Positions 13,845 to 44,836 of a DNA stretch of 64,000 bases are shown in pieces. The position numbers were made by a program, and so were the translations under genes. Each line of letters starts with the position of its first letter. Within the stretch, counting starts at the first letter, position 1. The notes under the pieces were generated by a model. That model saw nothing but the letters and a program-made list of their open reading frames with translations. It did not search any database and was not told the origin of the DNA. Source of the stretch: Polaromonas sp. (GTDB taxonomy: Bacteria; Pseudomonadota; Gammaproteobacteria; Burkholderiales; Burkholderiaceae_C); assembly GCA_030654695.1 (NCBI GenBank), contig JAURWY010000011.1, positions 62,001-126,000 on the forward strand, in the 5' to 3' direction.

Positions 13845-13884
13845 GTGTCAAGCTTGTGTCGATTCCAAGGCAGTTTGTTGACAC
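13845..13884 (-). promoter_or_regulatory. Pho-box array upstream of plcP-agt
   Basis: On the minus strand the 7-mers GTGTCAA, CTGCCTT (weak), TCGACAC and TTGACAC start exactly 11 bp apart. PhoB sites are direct repeats of a CTGTCAT-like 7-mer plus a 4-bp spacer, so period and core both fit. The array faces plcP. Confidence 0.55.
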
Positions 13885-13895
13885 TCAAACGCCCA

Positions 13896-13934
13896 TAAAA
13901 AAAGCTGCTGCACCGGTGAGATGCAACAGCTTTT
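13896..13934 (-). terminator. Rho-independent terminator of phoX
   Basis: Read on the minus strand, AAAAGCTGTTGCA pairs with TGCAGCAGCTTTT around a short loop and ends in a run of T. It begins about 15 bp after the phoX stop and separates phoX from the plcP promoter. Confidence 0.8.
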
Positions 13935-13949
13935 CTGGGTGATTCAGCC

Positions 13950-16193
13950 TCAAACGCCGATCAAGCCGCCATCGTTTCGCGTGATCACAATGGTGGCTGA
14001 TCGTGGCCGACCTGCCGCACCGTAGCCTTGATTGCCCGGCCACAGACTCTGCGCATTGAACTGAGCAGAGCCGCCCAGTGCGGGCGTGTCTTCGCCCGGA
14101 TGCTGGATGTTGACGAACAAGGTCTTGCCGTCTGCGGTCTCCGTGATGCCCGTGACTTCAGCGCCCTTAGGGGCCACCAAGAATCGGCGCAATCTGGCTT
14201 CGCCCAACGTGGCACCGATGAAGGTGTTTTGCGTCCCTGTCACGTCAGCGCCGTTGATCGTCATGCGGTTGTTGACCTTGACCTTGCCGCCGTCGCCCAC
14301 CTGCCCTGGCACGGCTGCCAGCAGCATGCAATTGGTCTCGTCCGTCATGGCGCCATCGTCGGTCTGGATCCAGCAAATACCGGTGGCTTCGCTGAACCAC
14401 AAGCCATCTGGCGACGAGAAAGAATTCTTGGCTGTGAGCTTTGAGAGATTGGCATCGCCCGCATCTTCTTCAGCGCCAAAGACAAAAATATCCCATGCAA
14501 AACCTGCAGCCGTGGCACGGTTGGCGTCTTCCTTGAAGCGGATGATGTGGCCGTTCGGATTGCCCGCGCTTTTCTTGCCGTCAGCATCCATGTAAGCACG
14601 CGGATTGGCCGCATCGACCTTGGTCGGTGTGCGATTGCTGGCGTTGTTGTTGGTCAGTGCGAAATAAATTTCACCATTGCGGTGATTGACTGCGCCCCAC
14701 TCCGGCCTGTCCATTTTGGTGGCACCGACGGCATCGGCCGCATGGCGAGCATTGACCAAGACGTCGGCTTGATTGGCAAACGGGTAAGCGCTGTGCTTGG
14801 CAATGCGCGGGTCGCTGAGCGTCAACTCCAGCCACTGGCCGCTGCCGTCGGCATTGAACTTGGCGACGTACAGCTTTCCTTCGGTCAGGTATTTATCGCC
14901 AGCCGCCATGCCGCCGCCGATGTCCTTAGCGTCCCAGACGGCCGTCGTGACGAATTTATAGATGTACTCGTTGCGCGAATCACAGCCCATATAAAAGGCC
15001 AGTGGCGCCCCTTCTTTGGGCAAACCGCACACAGCGGCTTCGTGCGCAAAACGCCCCATGGCCACGCGTTTGGCCGGCACGGCGTTCGGTGCCAAAGGGT
15101 CGATTTCAAGGTTGAAGCCGAAGGTGTTGGGTTCATTGCGAAAGTCTTCTGCTGCGCTGCTGCCCACGGCGGCGACATTCCAACGCGCAAAGCGGTCGTC
15201 TGTACTGGACACGGTGTGCCAGCCCTGTGTGCGCTCATTTTTTTGCGCACTGGTCATGGGTGTGTTGGCGACGCCGTAACGCTTGCGCGACGCCATGATC
15301 TTTGCATCGACAGCTTGGCTGTCTTTCGGCATTTGAAAATACATCGCCCAGTTTTCTTCGCAAGCCAAGTAAGTGCCCCACGGGGTCTTGCCGTGACCAC
15401 AGTTGTTCAAGGTGCCACGGCTGGTTGCACCGCTGCGGTCATAACGGGTGCTCATCAGCGCCTTAATCTCAGCCAAATGCACCGCAGGACCAGTGATGCG
15501 CGCAGGCGTTTGCGGCGTGATGCGACGGTTCAGCGGCGAGTCCAGCTTGTAAGACCAGCCAGTCGCTGTCTTGCTGAGTTCAACAATCGAGACGCCGTGC
15601 AGGTTGATTTCTTTCAGGGCTTCAAGCTCTGGCCGGCTGCCGAGATCCCACTTGCCGAACTGGTCAAATTTACGGCCGCTGACGCCGCTAGAGGTCTGGC
15701 CTTTGGGGTGCAAGAAATGCGCTTCGGCCGAGCTTTCGTGGTTCACGCTGAGCACAGCACGACCCGTGTCTTTGACTGAATACTTGCCGGCTGCGTCGAC
15801 GTAGTAAATGTCCATGCCGTCATGTTGGTCGCCAATGCGGGCGGACCAGTCGTCACGCTCCAACCCTTGGTTCGAGTACGCGCCCATGCTGCGGTTCAGT
15901 GGGTCGCCACTGGCGTGCAGAACTTTGTAGCTGTAGCCGGGCGGCAAGATCACGTTGTCGAGCAGGCTCTTGTCAATCGCTGGAAAACCCAGCACCGTGG
16001 TTTTGCCAGCGGAGGCGGCGGGGATCAAGCTGGCACAACCCGGCAACATCGCCATGGTCGACAACGCTGCGAGGCCAAAGCCGCCACGAATCATGTTGCG
16101 ACGCGATGGGTTGTCAAGTGAACGTTTCAGGACTTGCTGAAAGTGGTCGTTGTTCGAGGTGTTGCAGACGTCATCGTCAAAATCATGGGCCAT
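13950..16193 (-). CDS. phoX: PhoX family alkaline phosphatase
   Basis: 747 residues, typical of long PhoX enzymes, which are calcium/iron-dependent monomeric phosphomonoesterases exported by Tat. The N-terminus carries the twin-arginine motif SRRNMIRGG (about residues 30-38), then a hydrophobic stretch ending MLPGCAS. The catalytic domain contains VSVNHESS-like LSVNHESS, NNCGHGKTPWGTYLACEENW (about 265-285), and late blocks SSPDGLWFSEATGICWIQTDDG. An ATG at 16193 is preceded by GGAG. A Pho-box pair lies 65-82 bp upstream on the same strand and a strong terminator follows. It would free phosphate from organic esters in the periplasm or outside the cell. Confidence 0.93.
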   Translation of the reverse strand: MAHDFDDDVCNTSNNDHFQQVLKRSLDNPSRRNMIRGGFGLAALSTMAMLPGCASLIPAASAGKTTVLGFPAIDKSLLDNVILPPGYSYKVLHASGDPLNRSMGAYSNQGLERDDWSARIGDQHDGMDIYYVDAAGKYSVKDTGRAVLSVNHESSAEAHFLHPKGQTSSGVSGRKFDQFGKWDLGSRPELEALKEINLHGVSIVELSKTATGWSYKLDSPLNRRITPQTPARITGPAVHLAEIKALMSTRYDRSGATSRGTLNNCGHGKTPWGTYLACEENWAMYFQMPKDSQAVDAKIMASRKRYGVANTPMTSAQKNERTQGWHTVSSTDDRFARWNVAAVGSSAAEDFRNEPNTFGFNLEIDPLAPNAVPAKRVAMGRFAHEAAVCGLPKEGAPLAFYMGCDSRNEYIYKFVTTAVWDAKDIGGGMAAGDKYLTEGKLYVAKFNADGSGQWLELTLSDPRIAKHSAYPFANQADVLVNARHAADAVGATKMDRPEWGAVNHRNGEIYFALTNNNASNRTPTKVDAANPRAYMDADGKKSAGNPNGHIIRFKEDANRATAAGFAWDIFVFGAEEDAGDANLSKLTAKNSFSSPDGLWFSEATGICWIQTDDGAMTDETNCMLLAAVPGQVGDGGKVKVNNRMTINGADVTGTQNTFIGATLGEARLRRFLVAPKGAEVTGITETADGKTLFVNIQHPGEDTPALGGSAQFNAQSLWPGNQGYGAAGRPRSATIVITRNDGGLIGV

Positions 16194-16257
16194 GCGAAAA
16201 CTCCAATAGGACAGGTGAATAGTTTGGGTAGCTCGGTGCTTATTACATTCAGCGAGT

Positions 16258-16275
16258 GTGACAAGGTCATGTCAG
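16258..16275 (-). promoter_or_regulatory. Pho box upstream of phoX
   Basis: Minus-strand CTGACAT, four bases, then TTGTCAC: two PhoB-type repeats at an 11-bp pitch, 65 bp before the phoX ATG. It overlaps a second, opposite array serving the GAPDH gene. Confidence 0.65.
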
Positions 16276-16303
16276 TTTCAAATGACAGTCACAAAGTTGA
16301 CAC
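16264..16303 (+). promoter_or_regulatory. Pho-box array upstream of GAPDH-arsJ
   Basis: Plus-strand 7-mers AGGTCAT, GTTTCAA, CAGTCAC and TTGACAC start at 16264, 16275, 16286 and 16297, exactly 11 bp apart, ending 57 bp before the GAPDH start. The intergenic region therefore appears to carry PhoB sites facing both ways. Confidence 0.55.
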
Positions 16304-16359
16304 AAATAGTGAGCACAATTCAACTTTTATTAAAGTGTTGACGCAACTGGGGGTCTCCA

Positions 16360-17403
16360 ATGAAAGTGGGTATCAATGGCATGGGCCGTATCGGTCGGCT
16401 GGCCTTGCGGGCGGCCATGGGCGCTGCGGATCGCCCTTCTGATGACCCACGCCAAGGGAATCGCCTCCAAGTCACGCACGTCAATGAATTAAAGGGCGGC
16501 GCCGCAGCGACGGCACACTTGCTGGCTTTTGACAGTGTGCAGGGCAAGTGGCGCGCCGACATCGCGGCCGAAGGCGAAGCAGCCATCCGCATCCATGGGC
16601 AGCCGCTGTCGTTCAGCGCGCATGGCACAGCCGCTGAGATTCCCTGGAGCGATTTGGGTGTTGAGTTGGTGCTGGAGTGCACTGGCAAGTTCCTCACCCC
16701 AGAAACGCTGCAAGGCCATTTTGACCGCGGTGCCAAGCGCGTCATCGTGGCGGCGCCGGTGAAAGTTGGCAACGTGCTGAATATCGTGGTGGGCGTCAAC
16801 GACCACTTGTACGACCCGCTCAACCACCGCATCGTGACGGCCGCTTCGTGCACCACCAACTGCTTAGCGCCGGTGGTCAAAGTGATTCAAGAATCCTTGG
16901 GCATCCGGCACGGCCAGATCACCACCATCCACAACCCGACCAACACCAACTTGGTGGTGGATGCACCCCACAAAGACTTGCGCCGGGCCCGCAGTGCCAT
17001 GATGAGCTTGTCCCCGACAACGACCGGCAGCGCCACCGCGATTGCGCTGATTTACCCGGAACTGAAAGGCAAACTCAACGGCCATGCGGTACGCGCTCCG
17101 GTCTTGAATGCCTCTTTGACCGACTGCGTGTTTGAACTGAAGCGCGAGACCACCACAGAAGAAGTGAACGCCTTGTTTGCCGCTGCGGCGAAGGGTTCGC
17201 TGGCAGGCATCTTGGGTTACGAAGAGCGCCCCTTGGTCAGCGCCGACTACGCCGGCGACACCCGCAGCGCCATCGTTGACGCCTTGTCCACCATGGTGAC
17301 CGACGGCACGCTGCTCAAAGTCTATGCTTGGTACGACAACGAAATGGCTTACGCCTGCCGCATGGTCGACTTGGCCTGCCACATGGAAAGCTTGGGGGTC
17401 TGA
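16360..17403 (+). CDS. ArsJ-associated glyceraldehyde-3-phosphate dehydrogenase
   Basis: 347 residues of type I GAPDH. It has the NAD site NGMGRIGR at 6-13 and the catalytic Cys164 in [14 protein letters not shown] with the usual second cysteine. The C-terminal [15 protein letters not shown] block is complete. It sits 5 bp before arsJ. In this known pairing the enzyme uses arsenate in place of phosphate to make 1-arseno-3-phosphoglycerate, which ArsJ expels. The gene is not in a glycolytic operon, and a Pho-box array precedes it, so a dedicated arsenate role is more likely than central metabolism. The fold is certain; the role comes from context. Confidence 0.93.
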
Positions 17404-17408
17404 GCGCC

Positions 17409-18653
17409 ATGTCGAACCCAACCCGCAACTACGCCATCGTCACGGCGGCCTACTGGGGCTTCACGCTCACAGACGGCGCGCTGCGCATGTTGGTGCTGAT
17501 GCATTTTTACCGACTCGGTTATTCGCCCTTCACGCTGGCCTTGTTGTTTTTGCTGTACGAAGCGGCGGGCGTGGCGGCCAACTTGGTCGGCGGCTGGCTG
17601 GCCACGCGTTACGGCATTGCGCGCATGTTGGCGGTCGGTTTGAGCACACAAATCATCGGGTTTTTATTGCTGTCGATGCTCAACCCGGCCTGGACAGCGG
17701 CGATGTCCGTCGCTTGGGTGGTGGTCGCGCAAGGCATATGCGGCGTTGCCAAAGACCTGACCAAGACGGCCAGCAAGTCAGCCATCAAGGTCACAGCAGA
17801 CCAAGCCAAAGATCAAGGCTCCGGCCAGTTGTTCAAATGGGTGGCTTGGTTCACCGGCAGCAAAAACGCCATGAAAGGCGTGGGCTTTTTCCTCGGCGGT
17901 CTGCTGCTGGACTCGCTCGGTTTCAGCGGCGCGCTGTGGGCCATGGCGGCACTACTGGCCTTGGTGCTGGTTGGTGTGCTGATGTATGTGCCACGCCTGA
18001 TGGGTAAGAACAAAGCCTCTAAATCGGCCAAGGAATTGTTTGCCAAAAGCCAAGCCATCAACTTGCTGGCGGCGGCACGAGTCGTGCTGTTTGGCGCACG
18101 CGACGTTTGGTTCGTGGTCGGTGTGCCGGTGTTTTTGTACGCCTCAGGCTGGACCTTCACGATGGTCGGTGGATTCTTGGCGCTCTGGACCATCGGCTAC
18201 GGACTGGTTCAAGCCTTGGCACCGCAGATCGTCAAGCGCAGTGTCGACGGACTCAGCCATGAAGTGCCCGCCGCCCGCACCTGGTCAGCCATCTTGGCGG
18301 TGGTGCCGATCCTGCTGGCCATCGCCGTTTATCTGCAAGTTCCAAATCTGGAATGGGTTGTCGTCGGCGGACTGGGTTTGTTCGGCGTCGCCTTCGCGGT
18401 TAATTCGTCCGTGCACTCGTACCTGATATTGGCGTATGCCGGCAGTGAAAAAGCCGCTGAAGACGTCGGCTTTTATTACGCCGCCAATGCACTGGGGCGT
18501 TTTTGCGGCACCTTGCTGTCGGGGCTTTTGTATTTGTGGGGCGGCCTGCTTTACCCACTCATCGCCTCAGCGCTCATGCTCGTCATTTGCTGGCTGGTGA
18601 CGCTGGCCTTGCAAACGACCTTGAACCCAGCGACGTCGCCAGACAGGCACTGA
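17409..18653 (+). CDS. arsJ: Organoarsenical efflux MFS transporter ArsJ
   Basis: 414 residues from the ATG at 17409; the frame is open further upstream, but that part only overlaps GAPDH. It has about twelve membrane segments, starting RNYAIVTAAYWGFTLTDGALRMLVL and continuing LALLFLLYEAAGVAANLVGGWLA, the characteristic ArsJ N-terminus. The central loop is rich in lysine (GKNKASKSAKE). It exports 1-arseno-3-phosphoglycerate, which falls apart to arsenate outside. Coupling to the GAPDH gene (5 bp) is diagnostic of the pair. Confidence 0.92.
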   Translation: MSNPTRNYAIVTAAYWGFTLTDGALRMLVLMHFYRLGYSPFTLALLFLLYEAAGVAANLVGGWLATRYGIARMLAVGLSTQIIGFLLLSMLNPAWTAAMSVAWVVVAQGICGVAKDLTKTASKSAIKVTADQAKDQGSGQLFKWVAWFTGSKNAMKGVGFFLGGLLLDSLGFSGALWAMAALLALVLVGVLMYVPRLMGKNKASKSAKELFAKSQAINLLAAARVVLFGARDVWFVVGVPVFLYASGWTFTMVGGFLALWTIGYGLVQALAPQIVKRSVDGLSHEVPAARTWSAILAVVPILLAIAVYLQVPNLEWVVVGGLGLFGVAFAVNSSVHSYLILAYAGSEKAAEDVGFYYAANALGRFCGTLLSGLLYLWGGLLYPLIASALMLVICWLVTLALQTTLNPATSPDRH

Positions 18654-18704: not shown

Positions 18705-19205
18705 ATGACAACACCCATCTTCAATGTTCTGTTCATCTGCACCGCCAATTCGGCACGCAGCATCATGGCCGAGGCCATCATGAACCAACAAAGCGACGGC
18801 CTATTTCGCGCCTTCAGCGCTGGCAGCCATCCAGCCGGCCAACTGAGCCAAGAAGCCGTCGATCTACTGCAACGCCATCAGTTCGACACTGCCACCTTGC
18901 ACAGCAAAAACTGGCGTGAGTTTGCTGGTGCAGACGCACCAAAAATGGATTTTGTGTTGACGGTGTGCGACAAGGCAGCGGGTGAAGTTTGTCCCGTTTG
19001 GCCCGGCCAGCCCATCTCGGCACATTGGGGTGTCGAAGACCCAGTGGCAGTGCAAGGCGATGAAGCACACAAACGCAAAGCCTTCAGCGATGCTTTCTTG
19101 ACGCTGCAACGCCGCATCGCTCTCCTGGTCAATCTGCCGATCGAAAAATTAGACAAACTGTCCTTGCAAAACGAGCTCAACAGAATTGGGACTGAACACA
19201 GCTGA
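18705..19205 (+). CDS. arsC: Arsenate reductase ArsC (low-molecular-weight phosphatase fold)
   Basis: 166 residues. The P-loop CTANSARS has its nucleophile at Cys12. The second and third redox cysteines are Cys88 and Cys96 in VCDKAAGEVCPVWPG, the arrangement of thioredoxin-linked ArsC enzymes. It reduces arsenate to arsenite in the cytoplasm. It follows arsJ by about 50 bp, with a 12-bp perfect palindrome (18654-18665) between them. The matching arsenite pump (Acr3) is not here but at 27.0 kb, so the arsenic genes are split in two blocks. Confidence 0.92.
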   Translation: MTTPIFNVLFICTANSARSIMAEAIMNQQSDGLFRAFSAGSHPAGQLSQEAVDLLQRHQFDTATLHSKNWREFAGADAPKMDFVLTVCDKAAGEVCPVWPGQPISAHWGVEDPVAVQGDEAHKRKAFSDAFLTLQRRIALLVNLPIEKLDKLSLQNELNRIGTEHS

Positions 19206-19224
19206 TGTGTATGTCAAAGCATTC

Positions 19225-19845
19225 ATGACCGTTCGCTCTCAAACCCTGCAAGAAGAACTCGCCAACAGCGTGAGTCATGGTGCGGCATTGCTGGTGGCCA
19301 TCGTGGCCGTGCCGTTTCTGATGTTTGCGGCCAGCCGACCGGTCGGCGCGTTGGTCTTTGCGTTGACGATGGTGTTTCTGTATTTCACCTCGACGCTCTA
19401 CCATGCACTCCCTGAGGGTCGGGCCAAGACTGTTTTTTTGAAACTGGACCACGGCGCCATCTACTTTTTCATCGCCGGCAGTTACACGCCTTTTGCGCTT
19501 GGCGCGATAGATGGTTCGCGCGACTGGTTGATGCTCGGGCTGGTCTGGGCGATGGCGTTGACAGGCGCCACGCTAAAGGTCATTGATCTCTTGGAAACGC
19601 CCTGGTTGTCCACCGGACTTTACTTGGCTATGGGGTGGTTGGTGCTGGTGGCGGCAGTGCCGATTGTTGAGCGGGTGTCTCTCCCGGTCTTCAACCTGCT
19701 GGTCGGTGGCGGGCTGGCCTACACCGTCGGCGTTGTCTTTTTTGCACTCGATTCCAAACTGCGCTACGCGCACACTGTCTGGCACGGCTTTGTTGCCGCG
19801 GGCACCGGCTGTCATTATTTTGCCGTGATGGGTTATGTCGCTTGA
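19225..19845 (+). CDS. Hemolysin III family membrane protein (PAQR/YqfA-like)
   Basis: 206 residues from the ATG at 19225; an upstream in-frame TTG at 19186 would overlap arsC. It has seven predicted membrane segments. Family markers are NSVSHGAALL near the N-terminus, YFTSTLYHALP near 60, LDHGAIYFFIAGSYTPF near 82-98 and the late HTVWHGFVAAGTGCHYFAV, giving the conserved His and Asp residues of the Hly-III/PAQR fold. The physiological role of bacterial members is poorly known; hydrolase activity on lipids such as ceramides is known for eukaryotic relatives. It lies between arsC and ppx with no evident separate promoter. Confidence 0.85.
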   Translation: MTVRSQTLQEELANSVSHGAALLVAIVAVPFLMFAASRPVGALVFALTMVFLYFTSTLYHALPEGRAKTVFLKLDHGAIYFFIAGSYTPFALGAIDGSRDWLMLGLVWAMALTGATLKVIDLLETPWLSTGLYLAMGWLVLVAAVPIVERVSLPVFNLLVGGGLAYTVGVVFFALDSKLRYAHTVWHGFVAAGTGCHYFAVMGYVA

Positions 19846-19883
19846 CGGGTGCTATGCTCGCCCGCACTAACGACTAGAAGATT

Positions 19884-21371
19884 ATGCAAAATGGAACGCG
19901 ACTTGCGGCTGTGGACTTGGGGTCCAACAGCTTTCGACTGGAAATTGGCCGCTTTGATGACGGTCAGATTCACCACACTGAATACCTCAAAGAAACCGTC
20001 CGCCAAGGCAACGGCCTAGACGCCAACCGAAACCTGACACCCGAAGCCATGCAACGCGGCTGGGAGTGTCTGGCACGTTTTGGTGAACGCCTCGCGGGTT
20101 TCAAAAAAAATCAGGTTCGCGCCGTTGCCACCCAAACACTGCGGGAAGCCAACAACCGCGATGAATTTCTCAGCCGTGCGCATCAAATTTTGGGCTTCCC
20201 CATTGACGTGATCGCTGGGCGCGAAGAAGCCCGGCTGATTTACCAAGGCGTCGCCCATCTGTTGCCGCAATCGACAGAGCGTCGGCTGGTGATTGACATC
20301 GGCGGTCGCTCTACTGAGATGATTTTGGGCTGCGGGCTAGAGGCCAAAAGCATGGAGTCTTGGCGCGTCGGTAGCGTTGCTTGGTCCATGAAATATTTTC
20401 CCGATGGTTTGCTCAGCGCGCGTGCTTTCAACAGCGCAGAGATTGCAGCCAAAGCCGTTTTAGACGAAGCCATACAAACCTTTGGCAGCCCGCAGTGGGA
20501 CACCGCCTATGGCTCCTCCGGCACTGTCGGTGCTGTCAGCGACGTCCTCACAGCCGCTGGATGGCCGGCTGACGTCGTCACCCGTGATGGGCTCGACTGG
20601 CTGCTGGAGCGGTTGATCAAAGCCCAAACAGCAGACCGCTTGAAAATGGAAGGCCTGAAGGATGATCGCCGCGCAGTCATTGGCGGCGGCGTCAGTGTGT
20701 TGCGGGCTATCTTTGACTTGCTCGACATCGACACCCTGCACACCGCTCAAGGCGCTTTGCGCCACGGCGCGCTGTATGACCTGCTGGACCGCGAGGAAAC
20801 ACAAACCGACTTGCGGTCACGCACGGTGCGTGGGCTGACCCGCAAGTTTCATGTGGATTTGGCCCATGCCGAGCGGGTCAGCCGGATAGCTTCTTCTTTG
20901 TTGGCCATGACACATCAGGGGTCAGTTGAAGAGCTTGAGCGTTACCAACAAAAAATCGATTGGGCGGCCCAGCTGCACGAAATTGGGAGCCACATTTCAC
21001 ACAACGAACCGCATAAACACGGCGCCTATATTTTGCACAATGCCGATGCGCCAGGCTTTGCTTTGCCCGAATTGCATCGGCTCAGCCTGTTGGTGCTGGG
21101 CCACCGCGGCAAACTCCGCAAACTCGACGCAGACTTCAACGACAGTGTTTTTGTGCAACAACTCCTTGCTTTGCGCTTGGCCGTTATTTTTTGCCACGCA
21201 AGGCGTGAGCCAGACCTGAAGGGCTTACGGCTGACACTGGACGGTACTCAGTTCTCGCTGCTGTGCAGAACGGGGTGGGCTGAAGCTTTTCCACAGTCAG
21301 CCTATCTGTTGCGGGAAGAGGTATTGGCTTGGGAAAAAACGCTTTGCACTTTGACGCTTAAAGACGCTTAA
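19884..21371 (+). CDS. ppx: Exopolyphosphatase (Ppx/GppA family)
   Basis: 495 residues. ASKHA-fold motifs are present: AAVDLGSNSFRLEIG at 8-22, REEARLIYQGVAH near 112, and VIDIGGRSTEMILG near 137-150. The latter reads GGRSTE where GGGSTE is usual. The C-terminal half resembles the HD-like helical domain (HEIGSHISHNEPHKHGAYI). It trims phosphate from polyphosphate chains or converts pppGpp to ppGpp. It is followed by a Lys-rich protein gene and then the oppositely oriented sixA-ppk, so the polyphosphate makers and breakers face each other. Confidence 0.9.
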   Translation: MQNGTRLAAVDLGSNSFRLEIGRFDDGQIHHTEYLKETVRQGNGLDANRNLTPEAMQRGWECLARFGERLAGFKKNQVRAVATQTLREANNRDEFLSRAHQILGFPIDVIAGREEARLIYQGVAHLLPQSTERRLVIDIGGRSTEMILGCGLEAKSMESWRVGSVAWSMKYFPDGLLSARAFNSAEIAAKAVLDEAIQTFGSPQWDTAYGSSGTVGAVSDVLTAAGWPADVVTRDGLDWLLERLIKAQTADRLKMEGLKDDRRAVIGGGVSVLRAIFDLLDIDTLHTAQGALRHGALYDLLDREETQTDLRSRTVRGLTRKFHVDLAHAERVSRIASSLLAMTHQGSVEELERYQQKIDWAAQLHEIGSHISHNEPHKHGAYILHNADAPGFALPELHRLSLLVLGHRGKLRKLDADFNDSVFVQQLLALRLAVIFCHARREPDLKGLRLTLDGTQFSLLCRTGWAEAFPQSAYLLREEVLAWEKTLCTLTLKDA

Positions 21372-22395: not shown

Positions 22396-22398
22396 GGC

Positions 22399-34539: not shown

Positions 34540-34620
34540 GCTCTGTATTTGAGTGTTGCTACTGCCTAAAATTGTGTAGCAGGCAGAGCCTGCTTTTCTG
34601 CTGGGAATTTATCTTTCACG

Positions 34621-36014: not shown

Positions 36015-36036
36015 ATAAACGATATACACCGTTTAT
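36015..36036. promoter_or_regulatory. Inverted repeat between divergent genes, possible operator
   Basis: ATAAACG, eight bases, CGTTTAT: a perfect 7-bp inverted repeat within the AT-rich gap between the nucleotide pyrophosphatase gene (leftward) and the membrane protein gene (rightward). The regulator is unknown. Confidence 0.4.
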
Positions 36037-36104
36037 TTGTACCGCATAACAAATGATGTGATGCAGAAAAAAGCACGGATCAGTTGACCCATTTGCTGAG
36101 AAAG

Positions 36105-36968: not shown

Positions 36969-37013
36969 GTTCATAAGATTTTCACAATCTACCGTCCTCA
37001 GCATCCACCATCC

Positions 37014-38324
37014 ATGTCGCTTGAAAATCTAATCGCTATGTTGGGCAAACAAAAGCTGGTTGACGGCATGGTCCACAGCCAAAAAATGCACAAGCACGAT
37101 GTTGTGCAGTCGCTGCTCCAAAAGCAACACGATGCCGAACTGCACAACTTCATCGCCAAACAAAGCTCAACAGAACTTGGTGGTTACTTGGATTCGCTGC
37201 CAGCGGAGGATGCCCAAAAACTCTGGGCCAAACTGCCGCAGGAGCGAGAGAACGATGTGCTGTGGGAAATGTCAGATCAAAGGCGAATAGACGTAGCCGG
37301 CGACCGACAACCCGACTTTGCTGAAAGCAAGATCAATGTCTATGAATTAAATGAAGGTCGACTTCGCAACATCCCGATGACGGGCAGAAAAGACCTAAAG
37401 GGTGCCAAACCTGTATGGGTTGACCTGATCAATTCATCCAAAGCCGAGCGGCTGTTTGTAGGCTCTCACTTTGGCGTGGAACTGCCAGATCCCATTGAGG
37501 CGACCGACCTTGAAGTAAGTGCGCGTTTTCACGTCGAAGAAAACGACGATATTCACCTTCATTCCAATTTTCTGCATGACCGGGAAGGCAACTCCAGAAG
37601 CGTTCCAGTCGCCTTCATTTTGCATGGCGGCATTCTTTTTTCATTGCGTAACGAAGAATTGCCGGTCTTCAGATTGCAGCGACGTCGGGCACTGACACAG
37701 CCGGGTTATGTGACTGACTGCGTTGACCTTCTTTTGGATCTGTATGGTGCAGACGTGGAAGTTTCCGCCGATTCACTTGAAAACATTTACGCCAAACTGG
37801 GCGTTGTTGGGCGTCATGTCTTGAGCGAGGCGATCACCGACCAAGAGGCGGCCGGCATTCTTGCCGATATCGCGGAAGAAGAAGATCAAAACGGCCGCAT
37901 TAGAAGCAACATCCTAGACACGCAACGTGCTTTTAGTTTTTTGATGCGCGGACGTTTATTAACGCCAGATCAAATTTCAGACTCCAAGCAAATTTTGCGC
38001 AACATTGAATCGCTGAATAGTCACACCGCTTTCCTGTTCGACAAGATCAACTTTTTGATGGACGCCACCATCGGTTTCATCAACATCAATCAGAACAAAC
38101 GCGTCAACCAGTTGACCGTCTTCAGCGTGGTCTTCATGCCCATCAATATTTTGGCGGGTATGGGCGGCATGTCTGAGTTTTCCATGATGACGCAAGCTGT
38201 TGAATGGCCGGTGGCCTACGGTGGTTTTTTTCTAGCCTCTGCATTGATTGGGCTCGCCACCTATGTGCTGCTGAAACATTTCGAGAAAAGACGTGTAAAG
38301 AGGACAAGCCACAAAGCTGGCTGA
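37014..38324 (+). CDS. CorA-family metal transporter with MgtE_N-like N-terminal domain
   Basis: 436 residues. Residues about 25-95 form helical repeats like the cytoplasmic MgtE N domain (HDAELHNFIAKQSSTELGGYLDSLPAEDAQKLWAKLPQERENDVLWEM). A CorA soluble domain follows from about 105 (VWVDLINSSKAERLFVGSHFGVELPDPIEATDLEVSARFHVEENDD). Two C-terminal membrane helices are at about 370-390 and 402-425. The usual GMN selectivity motif at the end of the first helix reads GMGGMSEF, so Asn is replaced. It probably moves a divalent cation, but the altered motif leaves the ion and direction open. Confidence 0.87.
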   Translation: MSLENLIAMLGKQKLVDGMVHSQKMHKHDVVQSLLQKQHDAELHNFIAKQSSTELGGYLDSLPAEDAQKLWAKLPQERENDVLWEMSDQRRIDVAGDRQPDFAESKINVYELNEGRLRNIPMTGRKDLKGAKPVWVDLINSSKAERLFVGSHFGVELPDPIEATDLEVSARFHVEENDDIHLHSNFLHDREGNSRSVPVAFILHGGILFSLRNEELPVFRLQRRRALTQPGYVTDCVDLLLDLYGADVEVSADSLENIYAKLGVVGRHVLSEAITDQEAAGILADIAEEEDQNGRIRSNILDTQRAFSFLMRGRLLTPDQISDSKQILRNIESLNSHTAFLFDKINFLMDATIGFININQNKRVNQLTVFSVVFMPINILAGMGGMSEFSMMTQAVEWPVAYGGFFLASALIGLATYVLLKHFEKRRVKRTSHKAG

Positions 38325-38352
38325 TGTCATCAAAGCTTCATTCGTTCGACTC
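38324..38352 (+). promoter_or_regulatory. Pho-box-like array upstream of the YkgJ-type gene
   Basis: ATGTCAT, GCTTCAT and TCGACTC start 11 bp apart immediately after the corA stop and about 50 bp before the next ATG. The later units are weaker matches. Confidence 0.4.
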
Positions 38353-38402: not shown

Positions 38403-38888
38403 ATGCGCGATTTATCCCTGGTTACTTTTTATGTCAAGCACATCGCGCCGAGGTTGGCCAGTGCCTATATCGGCACACTGCGGCGGATGCTTCCGGTGGC
38501 ACCGATTCTGGCAAGCCTCGTATTTGGACGACTCAAGTTCCTGCAGGATTACGCCGGTTTTATTCGAAAAATGCGCATTCATATTGACGCGCTCAGGGAG
38601 GGGCCGGCGCAGCACTACTTTGAAGACGTGCTAGGCCGAGCCAAAGCAGTGCCCGCCGACATTAGCGGCTCTTGCGTGCAGTGCGGCAACTGCTGCATGG
38701 ACAAGCGCTGTGTGTTTTTAGAGCCGATTGACGACGGACGCTACCAGTGCGGTATTTACCACTCGCCATTTCGCAGGCTTTCAAACTGTGGCTCTTTTCC
38801 CTTGAACGCCTACGACATCTCGCGCTACGCCTGTCCGAGCTACCACGTGATTGAAATCGTTCGGAAGCCCCAGCCTTCAAGTCATTGA
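38403..38888 (+). CDS. YkgJ-family cysteine-cluster protein
   Basis: 161 residues. The centre holds the Fe-S/zinc-type cluster motif SCVQCGNCC (about 93-101), followed by CVFLEP, YQCGIYHS, LSNCGSFPLNAYDI and YACPSYH. These are the spaced cysteines of the YkgJ/CxxCxxCC family, whose role is poorly known. The N-terminal 80 residues are a helical extension with a hydrophobic stretch (LRRMLPVAPILASLVFGRL). It precedes lplT, and its stop codon overlaps the first repeat of the lplT Pho array. Confidence 0.82.
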   Translation: MRDLSLVTFYVKHIAPRLASAYIGTLRRMLPVAPILASLVFGRLKFLQDYAGFIRKMRIHIDALREGPAQHYFEDVLGRAKAVPADISGSCVQCGNCCMDKRCVFLEPIDDGRYQCGIYHSPFRRLSNCGSFPLNAYDISRYACPSYHVIEIVRKPQPSSH

Positions 38889-38918
38889 AACGTCATTGAT
38901 TTGTCGGTGTGCTGACTT
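38879..38918 (+). promoter_or_regulatory. Four-repeat Pho-box array upstream of lplT
   Basis: AAGTCAT, ACGTCAT, TTGTCGG and CTGACTT start exactly 11 bp apart (38879, 38890, 38901, 38912), ending 23 bp before the lplT ATG. The short remaining distance implies a very short leader. Confidence 0.65.
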
Positions 38919-38941
38919 AATAACTCGCCACAATCTCGCCG

Positions 38942-40168
38942 ATGCCTACAGGCTTTTACCTCATCATTGCGGCTCAGTTTGTCTCAGCACTTGCTGACAA
39001 TGCTTTGTTGATTGTATCGATTGCCCTTCTTTCAGAGCAGGGGCTTCCGGCTTGGTGGGCACCGATGCTCAAATTCGTCTTCACCATTTCCTATGTGGTG
39101 CTAGCCCCCTTTGTCGGCCCCTTGGCTGATGCGGTCCCCAAAGCCCGCCTGATGGCGTGGATGAACGGCGTCAAAATTCTTGGCGTTGCGGCTTTGCTAC
39201 TCGGCTTTAACCCGCTCGTGGCCTTTGCCATCGCAGGCTTGGGTGCCACAGCTTATGCGCCAGCCAAGTATGGCCTGATCACTGAAATTGTCGCGCCCCA
39301 TCTCTTGGTCAAGGCGAATGGCTGGCTGGAAACCTCAGTGGTCTGTGCCGCGCTCTTGGGCGCAGTCTTGGGTGGCGTATTGGTCAACGCGAACGTGATC
39401 GCGACCCTGAATGGGCTGATGCGCGTTGAAAGCCTCGAAGGCATCTCACCGCTTTACACCTCTCTGCTGGTGCTGCTGATGATCTACGGTGGAGCGAGCC
39501 TGCTCAATCTGGGTATCCCACACAGCGGTGCCCGTTATCCGGCAAGCAGTATCCACCCGTTGGTGCTGATACGGGATTTTTGGCGCGCCAATTTACTCTT
39601 GTGGCGTGATGCTGAGGGCGGCCTGTCACTGGCGGTCACCACGATTTTTTGGGGCCTTGGCGCAACGCTGCAATTCATTGTCTTGAAGTGGTCAGCCGAT
39701 GTTCTATTCCTGCCCCTCGAACAATCAGCCTACCTACAAACAGCTGTCGCGGTAGGAGTCGTTGTGGGCGCTGTCATTGCCGGACGATGGATTCCCCTGC
39801 GACATGCAAAACACGTCCTGCCGGCTGGCGTTTTGATGGGCCTGCTCATCACCGCCATTGCCCATGTGCAGGTGGTCAGCACGGCCCTGCTGTTTCTGGC
39901 GCTTATAGGTGTGGTTGGCGGCATTTTGGTCGTCCCTCTCAATGCCTTGCTGCAACACCGTGGCTTTGTCCTTTTGAGTGCGGGCAGGTCAGTGGCCGTG
40001 CAGGGCTTCAATGAAAACCTGAGTGTGTTGTGCTTGCTGGGGGTGTATGCCGCCTTGGTCGCTGCGGATGTATCCATCGTCCTGCTGTTGACACTGTTTG
40101 GCCTGTGCACCGCTGCGGCGATTGGTTTGCTGCTTCAGCGTGGCTTTCGCGCTGGACCAACCCGTTAA
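38942..40168 (+). CDS. lplT: Lysophospholipid transporter LplT
   Basis: 408 residues, MFS type with about twelve membrane segments. It has the LplT opening FYLIIAAQFVSALADNALLIVSIALL and the family block IAGLGATAYAPAKYGLITEIVAPHLLVKANGWLETSVV (about 98-135). It flips lysophospholipids inward across the inner membrane for re-acylation. No aas-type acyltransferase is fused or adjacent. With a Pho array in front, it may recover lipids during phosphate-driven membrane remodelling. It converges on the second glycosyltransferase gene. Confidence 0.92.
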   Translation: MPTGFYLIIAAQFVSALADNALLIVSIALLSEQGLPAWWAPMLKFVFTISYVVLAPFVGPLADAVPKARLMAWMNGVKILGVAALLLGFNPLVAFAIAGLGATAYAPAKYGLITEIVAPHLLVKANGWLETSVVCAALLGAVLGGVLVNANVIATLNGLMRVESLEGISPLYTSLLVLLMIYGGASLLNLGIPHSGARYPASSIHPLVLIRDFWRANLLLWRDAEGGLSLAVTTIFWGLGATLQFIVLKWSADVLFLPLEQSAYLQTAVAVGVVVGAVIAGRWIPLRHAKHVLPAGVLMGLLITAIAHVQVVSTALLFLALIGVVGGILVVPLNALLQHRGFVLLSAGRSVAVQGFNENLSVLCLLGVYAALVAADVSIVLLLTLFGLCTAAAIGLLLQRGFRAGPTR

Positions 40169-41410: not shown

Positions 41411-41432
41411 GCAATGATCATGTCGCCTCTTC

Positions 41433-41450
41433 GTAACAACTTGATGACAA
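41433..41450 (-). promoter_or_regulatory. Pho box upstream of the second glycosyltransferase
   Basis: Minus-strand TTGTCAT, four bases, TTGTTAC at an 11-bp pitch, 23-40 bp before the ATG at 41410. It supports that start over the longer frame. Confidence 0.55.
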
Positions 41451-41475
41451 ATCGGCACTTCGAATTGAAACGTTA

Positions 41476-41493
41476 ACGTCACGAAACTTTCAT
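41476..41493 (+). promoter_or_regulatory. Pho-box-like pair upstream of the Mpo1-like gene
   Basis: Plus-strand ACGTCAC, four bases, CTTTCAT, facing the opposite way from the neighbouring site at 41433-41450; about 72 bp before the GTG at 41565. Confidence 0.4.
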
Positions 41494-41564
41494 ACGGCGG
41501 GGCTAAATTGAGGTCGTTAACTTAAGCGACTAGGGCGTACTGCCCCCAACTCCGCGAGGCCCAT

Positions 41565-42173
41565 GTGAACGATTTTTTTCAACAGTTAAAGACCCAGCGT
41601 TGGGATGACCACCGCTATTACCACCATAGCCGGATCAACCAAAGCCTGCATCTGCTCAGCGCTGTCAGTTTTGTGATTGCTTATGCGTTGCTGTTTGTCA
41701 ATCCCGCTTGGGCTGCGTTGTTGGCATGGCTGGTGTCCATGACAAGTCGTCAAGCTGGGCATTTCTTTTTTGAACCCCGAGGCTATGACGACGTGAACCA
41801 AGCGACCGATGCGCACAAAGAAGAGATCAAGATTGGCTACAACATTCGCCGCAAAGTGGTGTTACTGGCCGTCTGGGTCTTGGTGCCTGTGGCGCTGTGG
41901 CTACAGCCCTCTCTGTTTGGCCAAATTGCACCCGCGGATGGGCTGATGGAGTTCCTGAACGACGTCGGTTTGGCGTGGCTGGCCTTAGGTGTCGCCGGTT
42001 TGCTGTTTCGTGTCGTCCAACTGTGGATTCAACAGGACGCTTGGACGGGCATCGTCTGGGCCTTCAAGATCATCACAGATCCCTTCCACGACATCGTGCT
42101 GTACCACAAGGCGCCCTTGGCCTTGTTGCGCGGCGAGATGATCGATCCGATGGCGCATGTCAAGCACAAGTGA
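41565..42173 (+). CDS. Membrane protein resembling Mpo1/DUF962
   Basis: 202 residues starting with GTG at 41565. The overlapping ATG two bases earlier is followed at once by a stop, and GCGAGG lies upstream. There are four or more hydrophobic segments. The early H-S-R-I-N-Q-S-L-H pattern and RQAGHFFFEPRGYD resemble the His-Asn-His and GH-x-F-x-E features of Mpo1-like proteins, which act on 2-hydroxy fatty acids in yeast. The late KIITDPFHDIVLYHKAP block is well preserved in character. The family call is tentative. It ends at a perfect terminator shared with the next gene. Confidence 0.6.
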   Translation: MNDFFQQLKTQRWDDHRYYHHSRINQSLHLLSAVSFVIAYALLFVNPAWAALLAWLVSMTSRQAGHFFFEPRGYDDVNQATDAHKEEIKIGYNIRRKVVLLAVWVLVPVALWLQPSLFGQIAPADGLMEFLNDVGLAWLALGVAGLLFRVVQLWIQQDAWTGIVWAFKIITDPFHDIVLYHKAPLALLRGEMIDPMAHVKHK

Positions 42174-42218: not shown

Positions 42219-43865
42219 TCAACGCGGCTGGCGCAACATCTCCCTGAAAATACCTTTGCGTATGGTTTGATTGGTTTGCTCGGGACCACTCCACCAGCCA
42301 TCATCTTGCATGGCTTTAACGGCGTCTGCGAAACGTTTGACGACCTCCCCAAACTCAACATCCCCATAGTTCAAACTGAAAATGAGACGGCCACTGCCAA
42401 CCCAGCTCAAGGCCAGCCCATGTGCGCGCAGGTAAAACTGCAGCATCCAGTTGTAGCGGGAAGGCTGGGTGTAAAGCACCGTCCAGACCGTCGACATATT
42501 CGCCACCCGGACCGGCAAACCCTGTTCCTCGAGTTGGTTGTTCAGCAGCTTAGCGCGGCCATCCCAACGCTCGTCGATGCCGTCATACAACTGAGCAATC
42601 GCGGGCGTCTCCAATGCATCGAGAAAAGCCTTCATGGCACCCATCACATAAGGGTGCGCGTTGAAGGTGCCACGCGCAAAACAAATGTCGCCTGGCCGAT
42701 CATCCCGGTAACGCTTCATCAGCGCCGAGCGACCGCACACAACGCCCACCGGCAGACCACCGCCCAAGGTTTTTCCATAGGTCACCATGTCGGCCTGAAT
42801 GCCAAAGTAGGCTTGCGCGCCACCGGGTGCCAAGCGGAAGCCGAGAAACACCTCGTCAAAAATCAAAACAATCCCGCGCTCTGTGCACACCGCCCTAAGC
42901 TTTTTAAGCCAGTCCGTGTAAGCCGCCCGGTCATAGGCCACGCGGCGACTGCTGTCGACCAACGACGAGTCGCCGGGCGCGGACGCATTGGGATGCAAGG
43001 CCTGCAGCGGATTGACCAGCACACAGGCAATGTCCTTGCGCGTGCGCAACACGTGAAGCGTGCGTTCGTCCATCTCTTTGAGCGTGTGGGTCTCGCGGGG
43101 TGGCAGCGGATTGCCGGGGCCGGGTTGAACGTCTTCCCACCAGCCGTGGTACGAGCCACTGAAGCGAACCAGATGACTCCGCTTGGTGTGGTAGCGCGCC
43201 AAGCGAACCGCCTGCATCACTGCTTCTGTGCCGGACATGTGAAAAGACACTTCGTCCAAGCCAGAGATGGCTTTGAGTCGGGTCACGTTCTCGAGGACGC
43301 AAGGGTGGTACGCACCCAAGACTGGCCCGAGGTCTTTCACCAGTTGCTGACCGGCCTCAATGCTGGCCTTGTAAAAGTCATAGCCCAACAGGTTCACGCC
43401 GTAGGAGCCGGTCAGGTCATAAAAAACATTGTCATCCAGGTCGGTCACGGTCACGCCGTGCGACGCCTTCACAAAACTGCCGCTTTTGATGTGTTGGCTC
43501 AGGTAGTCGCTGTATTGGTAGGGCACCCGATAACGACCGGTGAACTGCAGGTCCGAAATGATGGCTCGGGCGCTGCTGGTCATGGCAACACTTTTCGGGA
43601 AACGCGCGGCGTAAAGCGCCGCCAATTTGGCAAACCCGTCGCGCCGTCGCTGCACGACGGTGCTGTCGGCATGGTCCGAATTAAAGAAGGTGGCTTCGTC
43701 ATAGGCATAGCCGGGAAGCAGTCCGGCGATGCGCTTGGCAATACGCGAATGACCCGCCAAAGATCGATGCTTGGCGCGGGAGAGTTCTATCCGTCGCTTG
43801 GCTTTGGGCAAGACCCAAGCCAGTACGCCGAGTGCCAATAACGGGAGAGCGATGTTGTCGTCCAT
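42219..43865 (-). CDS. Membrane-anchored class III PLP aminotransferase (glutamate-1-semialdehyde aminomutase-like)
   Basis: 548 residues, about 100 longer than ordinary class III enzymes. Residues 4-20 are hydrophobic (IALPLLALGVLAWVL) followed by KAKRR, a likely N-terminal membrane anchor. The aminotransferase domain has FHMSGTEAVMQAVRLAR, FSGSYHGWWE, LIFDEVFLGFRLAPGGAQ and VTYGKTLGGGLPVGV with the PLP Lys. It diverges from psd, with only 53 bp between starts. It is not a haem-pathway hemL, which is soluble and shorter. An amine-forming step on a lipid or sugar precursor is a reasonable guess, no more. Confidence 0.85.
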   Translation of the reverse strand: MDDNIALPLLALGVLAWVLPKAKRRIELSRAKHRSLAGHSRIAKRIAGLLPGYAYDEATFFNSDHADSTVVQRRRDGFAKLAALYAARFPKSVAMTSSARAIISDLQFTGRYRVPYQYSDYLSQHIKSGSFVKASHGVTVTDLDDNVFYDLTGSYGVNLLGYDFYKASIEAGQQLVKDLGPVLGAYHPCVLENVTRLKAISGLDEVSFHMSGTEAVMQAVRLARYHTKRSHLVRFSGSYHGWWEDVQPGPGNPLPPRETHTLKEMDERTLHVLRTRKDIACVLVNPLQALHPNASAPGDSSLVDSSRRVAYDRAAYTDWLKKLRAVCTERGIVLIFDEVFLGFRLAPGGAQAYFGIQADMVTYGKTLGGGLPVGVVCGRSALMKRYRDDRPGDICFARGTFNAHPYVMGAMKAFLDALETPAIAQLYDGIDERWDGRAKLLNNQLEEQGLPVRVANMSTVWTVLYTQPSRYNWMLQFYLRAHGLALSWVGSGRLIFSLNYGDVEFGEVVKRFADAVKAMQDDGWWSGPEQTNQTIRKGIFREMLRQPR

Positions 43866-43918
43866 AGAGTCCTCAGTTTTAAAACTTCACAACGCTAACT
43901 ATCTTTTTTGACAGGCAT

Positions 43919-44797
43919 ATGAAAACTAATTTTTTTCGCCAATTTTTCCTGCAGGAAGACATTAATTTCCTGCTCACCAACCGGGTGCCGCGCATCATGC
44001 TCACGCGCTGTATGGGCTGGTTCAGTAAAATACGAAGCCCCCTGCTCGCACGGTTGTCGATCCGGGTCTGGCGCATGTTCACGGAACTTGACCTGAGCGA
44101 TGCACGGCAAAAAACCTTCGGCAGCCTGCATGACTGCTTCACCCGCGAGCTCAAACCTGGCGCCAGAGTGATCGACCCGAACCCGACGGTCATGAGCAGC
44201 CCCAGCGACGCCATCGTCGGCGCATGCGGTCAGGTTGTCGATGGCTTGGTGATACAGGCCAAGGGATTCCCGTATTCAATCGCCGAACTCTTTGGCCCCA
44301 GTCAAGACACGACCGCGTTCAACAACGGCACCTACGTCACCTTGCGCTTAACCTCTGGCATGTACCACCGCTTCCACGCGCCACAAGACATGACCGTGGA
44401 GCATGTGACCTACATCAGCGGCGACACCTGGAATGTGAATCCGATTGCCCTGAAAAGAGTCGAGCGTTTGTTTTGCCGCAATGAGCGCGCGGTGCTGCGA
44501 GCGCGCTTGAAAGACACAGGTCACCCGATTGCTTTGGTGCCCATTGCCGCGATTTTGGTGGCCAGCATGCGTCTGCATTTTTTAAATATTTTGTTGCATT
44601 TACGCTACCGTGGGCCAAATGAAATACCTTGCGCAGCCCCTTGCGTCAAAGGTCAGGAGTTGGGCTGGTTCGAACATGGATCAACCATCATTGTGGTTGC
44701 GCCCGCAGGTTTTGAATTGTGCGACGGCATTGAATTCGGTCAACAGATCCGTATGGGTCAGGCCTTGATGCACTTGCCCAAACCACAGCCCGCTTAA
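43919..44797 (+). CDS. psd: Phosphatidylserine decarboxylase
   Basis: 292 residues of the pyruvoyl-dependent family. The self-cleavage site is the serine of FEHGSTIIVVAP (HGST in place of the common LGST). Other family blocks are LTSGMYHRFHAPQDM, VNPIALKRVERLFCRNER and VPIAAILVASM. It makes phosphatidylethanolamine at the inner membrane. It lies apart from any pssA gene and instead next to the anchored aminotransferase and upstream of ugd, with a Pho array starting right at its stop codon. It may be a second, specialised copy. Confidence 0.92.
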   Translation: MKTNFFRQFFLQEDINFLLTNRVPRIMLTRCMGWFSKIRSPLLARLSIRVWRMFTELDLSDARQKTFGSLHDCFTRELKPGARVIDPNPTVMSSPSDAIVGACGQVVDGLVIQAKGFPYSIAELFGPSQDTTAFNNGTYVTLRLTSGMYHRFHAPQDMTVEHVTYISGDTWNVNPIALKRVERLFCRNERAVLRARLKDTGHPIALVPIAAILVASMRLHFLNILLHLRYRGPNEIPCAAPCVKGQELGWFEHGSTIIVVAPAGFELCDGIEFGQQIRMGQALMHLPKPQPA

Positions 44798-44836
44798 TGT
44801 CATTGTTTTGACGCATGAGCGTCATCTGCGCGACAC
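44797..44836 (+). promoter_or_regulatory. Four-repeat Pho-box array upstream of ugd
   Basis: ATGTCAT, TTGACGC, GCGTCAT and GCGACAC start at 44797, 44808, 44819 and 44830, exactly 11 bp apart, and end 53 bp before the ugd ATG. Confidence 0.7.

Follow-up and report, generated by a model that had tools for sequence, protein, structure and literature searches.

In E. coli and other Proteobacteria the promoters of the PhoB regulon contain TGTCA-type direct repeats at a pitch of 11 bp, which stand in for the -35 element. The Pho units of E. coli are scattered and its box unit is CTGTCAT. Marine picocyanobacteria and SAR11 possess phosphate gene clusters, with a gene content that seems to differ from that of the locus analyzed here. 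For marine bacteria, six plcP contexts with predicted Pho boxes are described in the passages of Sebastian et al. 2015 (PMC4796936) that we compared. We analyzed a window of 64 000 nt (the whole stretch of DNA presented above) and consider it very probable that it holds a physically assembled Pho regulon with predicted PhoB promoters. The locus resembles the E. coli regulon in the repeat type, the 11-bp pitch, the predicted replacement of the -35 element and the presence of phoBR and pst, but here many units are adjacent and the unit is TGTCACg, not CTGTCAT. As in the picocyanobacterial and SAR11 clusters, several phosphate genes lie in one region. With the neighborhoods of PMC4796936 the locus shares the proximity of plcP to a glycosyltransferase gene, the prediction of Pho boxes and the presence of non-phosphorus lipid genes nearby, whereas polyphosphate, arsenate and TonB units and an mpo1-aminotransferase-psd module are named only here when compared to those passages.

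We learned a matrix de novo from 31 pstS promoters, all of them from other genomes and with the window excluded, and obtained the unit TGTCACg. Applying this pstS-trained matrix we observed that TGTCA-type direct repeats at 11-bp pitch, placed at promoters, are concentrated between 13.8 and 44.8 kb. A sequence-only reading of the same DNA had expected an excess of PhoB matrix hits over shuffled sequence and over other regions of the window, and both are seen: seven four-unit arrays were found between 11.8 and 46.3 kb (200 shuffles: mean 0.445, maximum 3) and none in the remaining 29.6 kb. Three-unit arrays numbered 8 (shuffle mean 0.94, maximum 4) and two-unit arrays 9 (mean 1.18, maximum 5), with two of each in the rest of the window; one of the nine two-unit matches (45183–45200) falls within ugd. 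In 15 stretches of this genome, sampled as background and 300 kb in total, the four-, three- and two-unit counts were 0, 6 and 6. When the pitch was varied from 8 to 15 bp, all seven four-unit arrays appeared at 11 bp and at most one at any other pitch; for two units there were 9 at pitch 11, yet also 4 at 15 bp. Scanning the whole window with a plain consensus (degenerate dimer) showed a mild enrichment (27 matches compared to 16.05 expected, with 2 of 100 shuffles reaching 27) and was dropped as a basis; being too weak to decide, it was replaced by the multi-unit matrices. A hand-set consensus matrix gave the same picture, with one of the 15 background stretches (L021) scoring at least 16, but because it was set after the sites were seen our conclusions rest on the pstS-trained matrix. 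The 12 arrays listed by the sequence-only reading were all recovered, none of them displaced by more than about 10 bases from the positions it gave, and all 12 lie upstream of their gene in the gene's orientation as it had claimed; ten exceed the pstS-trained thresholds, while those of exbD and ykgJ fall below. Its inventory was incomplete in that the arrays of corA, the aminotransferase and the NPP phosphodiesterase had been overlooked.

The arrays also keep a fixed distance to the promoter core. Seven of the 12 arrays are followed by a -10-like hexamer (at least 4/6) that begins 9 bp past the array, with a binomial p of about 1e-8 for an offset that was spotted in the window arrays before p was computed and that equals the 9-bp spacing to -10 of the pstS training motif. 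At a level of at least 3/6 the +9 hexamer is found in 11 of 12 arrays. For pstS, corA and ykgJ it reaches 4/6 only in the two-unit register and 2–3/6 with three or four units. The arsR gene, which has no array, likewise shows a 4/6 hexamer at +9, by chance. Given this 9-bp distance between array and -10-like hexamer, PhoB would stand in for the -35 element, and the proposed PhoB-binding geometry agrees in unit sequence, pitch, orientation and distance to -10.

In the left part of the cluster, a four-unit array (13844–13883, minus strand, score 16.2, -10 GACAAT at +9) precedes plcP and agt (11836–13760, minus strand), a metallophosphoesterase gene and an adjoining GT4-family glycosyltransferase gene with Pfam domains, as in PlcP-Agt pairs; the names are taken from context. 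Among solved proteins the PlcP candidate comes closest to LpxH enzymes (E 1.8e-5) and no PlcP model was among its NCBIfam matches, and we regard the pair as a putative phospholipase C and glycosyl-DAG synthase. The alkaline phosphatase gene phoX (13950–16193, minus strand; PF05787, 394.5 bits) has a two-unit box (16257–16274, minus strand, score 18.7, -10 TGTAAT at +9). It overlaps a divergent four-unit array (16265–16304, plus strand, score 24.5, -10 CACAAT at +9), which faces the adjacent genes for the ArsJ-associated GAPDH and ArsJ (16360–18653, plus strand; arsenate detoxification/export) and those behind them. Both proteins exceed the cut-offs of NF033735 and NF033734 and are the same as in the known GAPDH-ArsJ pair, but here the Pho array in front of them shares bases with the phoX box. 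For the ArsC-like phosphatase, HlyIII-like and Ppx genes that follow (18705–21371, plus strand; domain and family matches) the pstS-trained matrix found no significant array of their own. A four-unit array (24692–24731, minus strand, score 28.9, -10 CAAAAT at +9) precedes the polyphosphate kinase gene ppk and sixA (21901–24606, minus strand; domain matches), and another (25818–25857, minus strand, score 19.9) lies 247 bp from olsB (24725–25570, minus strand) because an unannotated ORF of 71 aa intervenes (25583–25795, stop codon excluded, minus strand). This ORF is recognized by conservation: its core is conserved in 19 of 119 olsB upstream regions, the window counted, with codon-position differences of 0.35/0.21/0.52, and a low-threshold Pfam search returned nothing. 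The olsB product, an N-acyltransferase for ornithine lipid, matches the OlsB models of NCBIfam best, although with 160.3 bits compared to a curated cut-off of 350 bits, and is called OlsB-like. On the other side of this array lies arsH; ArsH and the arsenic resistance protein ACR3 exceed the cut-offs of TIGR02690 and TIGR00832. With the pstS-trained matrix arsH, arsR, acr3, hypA and hypB carry no array although they lie within the cluster, and for hypA and hypB a low-threshold Pfam search gave nothing. A phytase-like gene (28717–30078) has a two-unit box at threshold (30145–30162, minus strand, score 13.0).

In the right part, exbD-tonB-TBDR-exbB (30252–34455) follows a weak four-unit array (34499–34538, minus strand, empirical p 0.0076, -10 TAACAT, 4/6, at +9), and the NPP phosphodiesterase gene (34621–35877) a three-unit array (35920–35948, minus strand, score 9.9, p 0.011, -10 TAACGT, 3/6, at +9). 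The CorA-family transporter gene (37014–38324) has a four-unit array (36947–36986, plus strand, score 27.7; E 2.2 in the whole-genome profile), with -10 TAAGAT at +9 counted from its first two units. The box of the cysteine-rich YkgJ-like gene (38403–38888; nothing in a low-threshold Pfam search) is weak (38325–38342, plus strand, score 7.0, p 0.04, within an empirical range of 0.02–0.06 for ykgJ with the pstS-trained matrix, -10 CAAAAT at +9). The gene lplT (38942–40168), above the cut-off of the lysophospholipid transporter model NF008397 (478.6 compared to 297 bits), follows a four-unit array (38880–38919, plus strand, score 9.8, -10 CACAAT at +9). For the GT4 gene (40196 to about 41410) the two-unit box (41432–41449, minus strand, score 14.6, -10 CATGAT at +9) falls within the longest ORF, which starts with GTG and with which p is only 0.10; the next ATG, at 41410, lies 21 bp past the array. 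The Mpo1-like gene (41565–42173) has a three-unit array (41466–41494, plus strand, score 14.1, -10 TAAATT at +9) and the class III aminotransferase gene (42219–43865) a two-unit box (43907–43924, minus strand, score 14.4, p 0.0037, +9 hexamer TAGCGT, 3/6). A second phosphatidylserine decarboxylase gene, psd (43919–44797, plus strand; TIGR00163 over cut-off), for which the pstS-trained matrix found no array of its own, is a paralog of a further psd elsewhere in the genome (C15:141603). The series ends with a four-unit array (44798–44837, plus strand, score 16.6, +9 hexamer 3/6) before ugd (44890–46275). A tRNA search found none at the cluster edge or anywhere else in the window.

The set lplT-GT4-mpo1-aminotransferase-psd is often found near plcP and has Pho-box-like promoters in other genera. 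Its aminotransferase has a hydrophobic N-terminus and as best solved match the aminotransferase domain of mycosubtilin synthase, which aminates a beta-keto fatty acyl chain. A HpnO-type hopanoid aminotransferase, considered as a candidate, is absent among the matches listed (25 of 68 NCBIfam matches) and was rejected. We tentatively suggest, as a rather doubtful reading, that the five genes could form an undescribed PhoB-controlled membrane-remodelling pathway, in which the aminotransferase and the Mpo1-like fatty-acid enzyme would yield a phosphate-free amine lipid that takes the place of phosphatidylethanolamine, alongside ornithine lipids and the glycolipids of PlcP-Agt. A literature search of titles and abstract openings, covering subscription papers thinly, returned no description of the cluster or of this module.

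Next, we compared the locus with its relatives. Gene counts were made by tblastn; longest-ORF clustering of these high-GC loci was spoiled by antisense ORFs and discarded. In 58 olsB loci of at least 17 kb (22 of 80 were shorter and left out before counting) we found ppk in 51, ppx in 44, plcP in 41 and pstS in 27, so that a core of olsB-plcP-agt-ppk-sixA-ppx-pst recurs, with plcP-agt repeatedly adjoining olsB. From the same-genus comparison 3 of 19 other genomes with a ppk match were left out. Boxes over threshold recur as well: at ppk in 43 of 64 relatives, at ppx in 19 of 52, at olsB in 41 of 81 with three and 61 of 81 with four units, at mpo1 in 7 and 12 of 24, respectively, and at the phytase-like gene in the one relative scored. 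The contrast genes gave none (pstC 0/24, phoU 0/11, sixA 0/60, agt 0/41). A plcP box is rare (1/66), and plcP there usually follows olsB. In addition to the core, the present lineage has phoX, lipid genes and genes for arsenate export and TonB uptake. The wide occurrence of the core, together with the array-free arsH-arsR-acr3 and hut block, would fit a clustering that is inherited, with neighbors hitch-hiking on a conserved core and without selection for one programme. We judge this unlikely, though it keeps more weight than any other alternative, since phoX, gapdh-arsJ, NPP, corA, lplT, mpo1, the aminotransferase, ugd and, weakly, exbD have arrays of their own and this core is flanked by other phosphate or lipid units in relatives.

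The regulator itself is encoded outside the window, farther left on this contig, where pst-phoBR and phn are located (phoB-phoR about 13 kb to the left) and where pstS and phnC likewise have arrays; the hut block lies between pst/phn and the cluster. In two whole-genome searches four of five matches each fall in C29:44–99 kb. The exact dimer pattern hit pstS, phoX, ppk and corA with four of its five matches (reversed control 0). The top four of five profile matches were olsB, ppk, pstS and corA, with E < 0.05 in only two of five; the profile was built after 42 of 87 array sites had been dropped by eye for poor register. As 150 of 505 candidates were scored with it, weaker unclustered boxes may exist. 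Two other whole-genome matches (C28:39955 and C25:50182) have neighbors without obvious phosphate role in ORF listings. A PhoB profile matches at 26 genomic positions, which include many other response regulators or receiver domains, and the arrays could in principle be bound mainly by another OmpR/PhoB-family regulator of the same pitch. This is very unlikely, as the matrix derives from pstS promoters, the genes are phosphate-related and a single genome match, beside pst, exceeds the TIGR02154 cut-off for PhoB (321 compared to 296.2 bits); a PhoR domain is over cut-off as well. One could also suppose that the repeats arose by chance or from base composition and that the gene neighborhood invited a pattern to be seen in them. 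This agrees with the mild enrichment of the degenerate dimer scan but is hardly credible with no pitch-11 four-unit array in the 300-kb background, a fixed -10 register and boxes recurring in other genera.

The physically assembled Pho regulon remains our preferred reading; PhoB binding, induction and the enzyme functions in the cluster are proposed from sequence. PhoB-phosphate would bind about 15 TGTCA-type arrays of 11-bp pitch as single or tandem dimers. The 'one programme' of the sequence-only reading would be a row of many individual promoters, each with its predicted PhoB array, rather than a single transcript. Binding would switch on phosphorus scavenging (PhoX, NPP, the phytase-like enzyme and the TonB system, with pst and phn outside the window) and polyphosphate handling (ppk, sixA, ppx), while GAPDH-ArsJ would export the arsenate that comes in with phosphate. 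Phospholipid replacement by plcP-agt, olsB, ugd and probably lplT-GT4-mpo1-aminotransferase-psd would save phosphorus. Taken together, a bacterium of the Comamonadaceae group appears to have gathered many of its phosphate-starvation genes round a conserved core in one chromosomal neighborhood, where most transcription units stand behind a predicted Pho box. Linkage to this core plus an 11-bp-pitch array in the -10 register can therefore serve to predict new genes for phosphate starvation within a large family of bacteria, and the testable candidates are the lplT-GT4-mpo1-aminotransferase-psd set, the 71-aa ORF in front of olsB and a PhoB control of arsenate export by GAPDH-ArsJ and of the CorA-family transporter.

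The sequence-only reading had claimed a dense Pho-regulon cluster at 13845-44836, marked by GTCA repeats at 11-bp pitch that resemble PhoB binding geometry. To avoid circularity, the window was kept out of the training set: expectation-maximisation on 31 pstS promoters, all taken from other genomes, yielded the motif de novo. It was TGTCACGnnnnTGTCACA with a pitch of 11, with TAGAGT beginning 9 bp past the second unit. Scanning with the averaged unit of this pstS-trained motif, we found 9 two-unit, 8 three-unit and 7 four-unit arrays between 11.8 and 46.3 kb, compared to means of 1.18, 0.94 and 0.445 and maxima of 5, 4 and 3 in 200 shuffles. The remainder of the window contained 2, 2 and 0 arrays, respectively, and 15 stretches of the same genome (300 kb) contained 6, 6 and 0. 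The concentration of 11-bp-pitch arrays in the cluster was thus confirmed. Other stretches of the same contig, C29 (L007, L008, L010 and L011; 61 kb outside the window), gave 0, 2 and 0 after dropping one match that duplicates site 63198 of the window, and L009, the stretch carrying pst and phn genes, gave 1, 2 and 2. For 12 of the 32 cluster genes the empirical p was at most 0.0113 in at least one of three tests (nominal p per test), the background being up to 271 mechanically called genes; the olsB array lies beyond that search range. The four-unit score of the CorA-family transporter gene (36947-38324 with its array) was the second-highest in the matrix scan. We observed corA between phoR and olsB in four loci (L091, L098, L100 and L101). 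The phoX and gapdh-arsJ genes have a common divergent promoter with overlapping Pho boxes (16257-16304), and the two are divergent neighbours in L076, L083 and L112 as well.

Twelve arrays from the matrix scans were analyzed for a -10 hexamer. Of the hexamers that start 9 bp past the array, 7 agree with TATAAT in 4/6 positions or more and 11 in 3/6 or more; position 2 is A in 10 of the 12 and position 6 is T in 11. Elsewhere the rate averaged 0.029 per offset (binomial p ~1e-8 for offset 9). This offset was picked up on inspecting the arrays, yet it equals that of the pstS training motif. It gives 4/6 for exbD, ykgJ, corA and pstS (the last three in the two-unit register only) and 3/6 for NPP and phnC, while the array-less regions reach at most 1-2/6 (ppx), at most 2/6 (exbB), 2-3/6 (arsH) and, once, 4/6 (arsR).

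We also searched the whole genome (3.445 Mb, 34 contigs; window at G000:C29:62001-126000); these searches gauge concentration, not regulon size. A sequence-only profile built from 45 of 87 arrays collected in relatives gave five matches at E ≤10, with 150 of 505 first-look candidates scored: olsB (6.9e-4), ppk (0.012), pstS (0.28), corA (2.2) and C25:50182 on another contig (2.2). The exact pattern TGWCAYN5TGWCAY likewise matched five times, four of them at pstS, phoX, ppk and corA, and its reversed control matched nowhere in the genome. On C29, pstS with an array, pstC, phoB and phoR occupy 44-51 kb (pstA, pstB and phoU in the same stretch are named by position), followed at 51-60 kb by a phosphonate transporter with an array, phnI, phnH and neighbours. 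An HD-domain protein is encoded between phoR and the phosphonate transporter genes (L009:10657-11220, minus strand). As hut genes fill most of the first 11.5 kb of the window, these loci and the cluster together make a Pho region of about 64 kb with the hut block inside.

Most of the earlier gene names were borne out by Pfam and NCBIfam: metallophosphoesterase (plcP), GT4 (agt), phoX, GAPDH-ArsJ, ArsC-like phosphatase, ppx, sixA, ppk, OlsB-like, the phytase-like gene, exbD-tonB-TBDR-exbB, NPP phosphodiesterase, CorA, LplT, a second GT4, class III aminotransferase, phosphatidylserine decarboxylase and ugd. The Mpo1-like gene scored 24.2 bits at a cut-off of 24; the YkgJ-like name has a cysteine-rich motif in its favour but no Pfam match. 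The cluster also includes arsH, arsR and acr3 (25868-28071), which lie inside it but without arrays; arsR-like and arsC-like matches occur in 26 and 19 of 80 olsB loci. Among the best 80 loci the closest named relatives are Comamonadaceae (Polaromonas, Rhodoferax, Limnohabitans and Curvibacter), the nearest being 'Comamonadaceae bacterium isolate Jr-19feb18-33' with an OlsB 94% identical. In 58 olsB loci of at least 17 kb we found ppk in 51, sixA in 51, ppx in 44, plcP in 41, agt in 36, pstS in 27, phoU in 12 and phoB in 10. Within the genus we read the surroundings of ppk at 16 places, many of them truncated by a contig end. Both sixA and ppx occur with ppk in 14 of these, ppx has pst genes next to it in 11, and 6 show the complete series olsB-plcP-agt-ppk-sixA-ppx-pstS; in one genome (G512) sixA alone accompanies ppk. 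This recurrence makes the core appear old, with the window as a rearranged and enlarged form of it. The block exbB-TBDR-tonB-exbD-NPP-hypB (30252-36968), placed between corA and the phytase-like gene, has a lower GC (0.495-0.55) and is not matched in L057 and L206 (G498), the loci of the nearest relatives; it is possibly a recent addition.

Boxes were surveyed in 100 relative loci with three units and a 98% threshold from 524 control genes. The threshold was exceeded for ppk (43/64), olsB (41/81; four units 61/81), ppx (19/52), mpo1 (7/24; four units 12/24), lplT (2/20; four units 4/20), phoX (2/5), corA (2/5), gapdh (1/6), arsR (2/26) and the phytase-like gene (1/1), seldom for amt3, the class III aminotransferase gene (1/26), GT4 (1/24) and plcP (1/66), and never for pstC (0/24), phoU (0/11), phoB (0/9), sixA (0/60), agt (0/41), arsC (0/19), hypA (0/19), psd (0/26) and ugd (0/6). 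There were 111 control genes whose start lay no more than 400 bp from a matched gene, and 9% of these exceeded the threshold, as expected from shared promoters.

The lipid module lplT-GT4-mpo1-aminotransferase-psd was followed through its aminotransferase, which is encoded by 93 of 299 genomes from the family and 9 of 274 from the class. Twenty family neighbourhoods, some ending at contig ends, contain GT4 (19), mpo1 (19), psd (19), lplT (14), plcP (11) and ugd (3); seven in other families contain mpo1 (6), psd (4), plcP (3), agt-like (3) and phoU/ppk/pstB (2). Under per-promoter shuffling (200 and 100 shuffles), 47 of 120 module promoters reached p ≤0.02 compared to 5 of 163 control promoters (Fisher p 2e-15), though module promoters are not independent since divergent pairs share DNA. 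The 47 comprise mpo1 (15/24), lplT (9/20), GT4 (9/24), amt3 (8/26) and psd (6/26); the fixed 98% threshold backs chiefly mpo1. Corrected p was below 0.05 in 19 of 31 loci, many barely so because of the shuffle resolution. The module psd is a paralogue, another psd lying on contig C15. Among solved proteins the aminotransferase is closest to the mycosubtilin synthase aminotransferase domain (E 2.2e-44, 155 bits), the next kind being glutamate-1-semialdehyde aminomutase (126 bits). We conjecture that the module product is an amine-bearing phosphorus-free lipid. An ORF that has a GGGHRAAA motif, and by eye resembles MGDG-synthase-type glycosyltransferases, is present in three aminotransferase loci (L168, L175 and L184).

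Between the Pho array and olsB we found an unannotated 71-aa ORF (25583-25795, minus strand). Its core, LRILRCTA..(M/L)A..PGGL.F..G..PWL, occurs in 19 of 119 regions upstream of olsB; the 19 include the window, and two of them (L067 and L212) appear to be a single sequence. Between aligned codons the differences amount to 0.35 at position 1, 0.21 at position 2 and 0.52 at position 3, a substitution pattern as expected of a translated gene.

Pho boxes at plcP clusters of marine bacteria are already reported in PMC4796936, and phosphate regulation of phn in a Variovorax in PMC12226003, where olsB, plcP and ppk do not occur. The term 'arsJ' co-occurred with 'pho regulon' in one paper, on Bacillus, and with 'phosphate starvation' in one on plants; 'DUF962' and 'phosphatidylserine decarboxylase' were not found together in the literature searched, which lacks most subscription papers. 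Taken together, the sequence evidence gives good support to reading the arrays as predicted PhoB sites. Systems of this kind are already known; what is new here is how far the clustering extends, together with the promoters of the arsenate and CorA genes, the small ORF and the lipid module.
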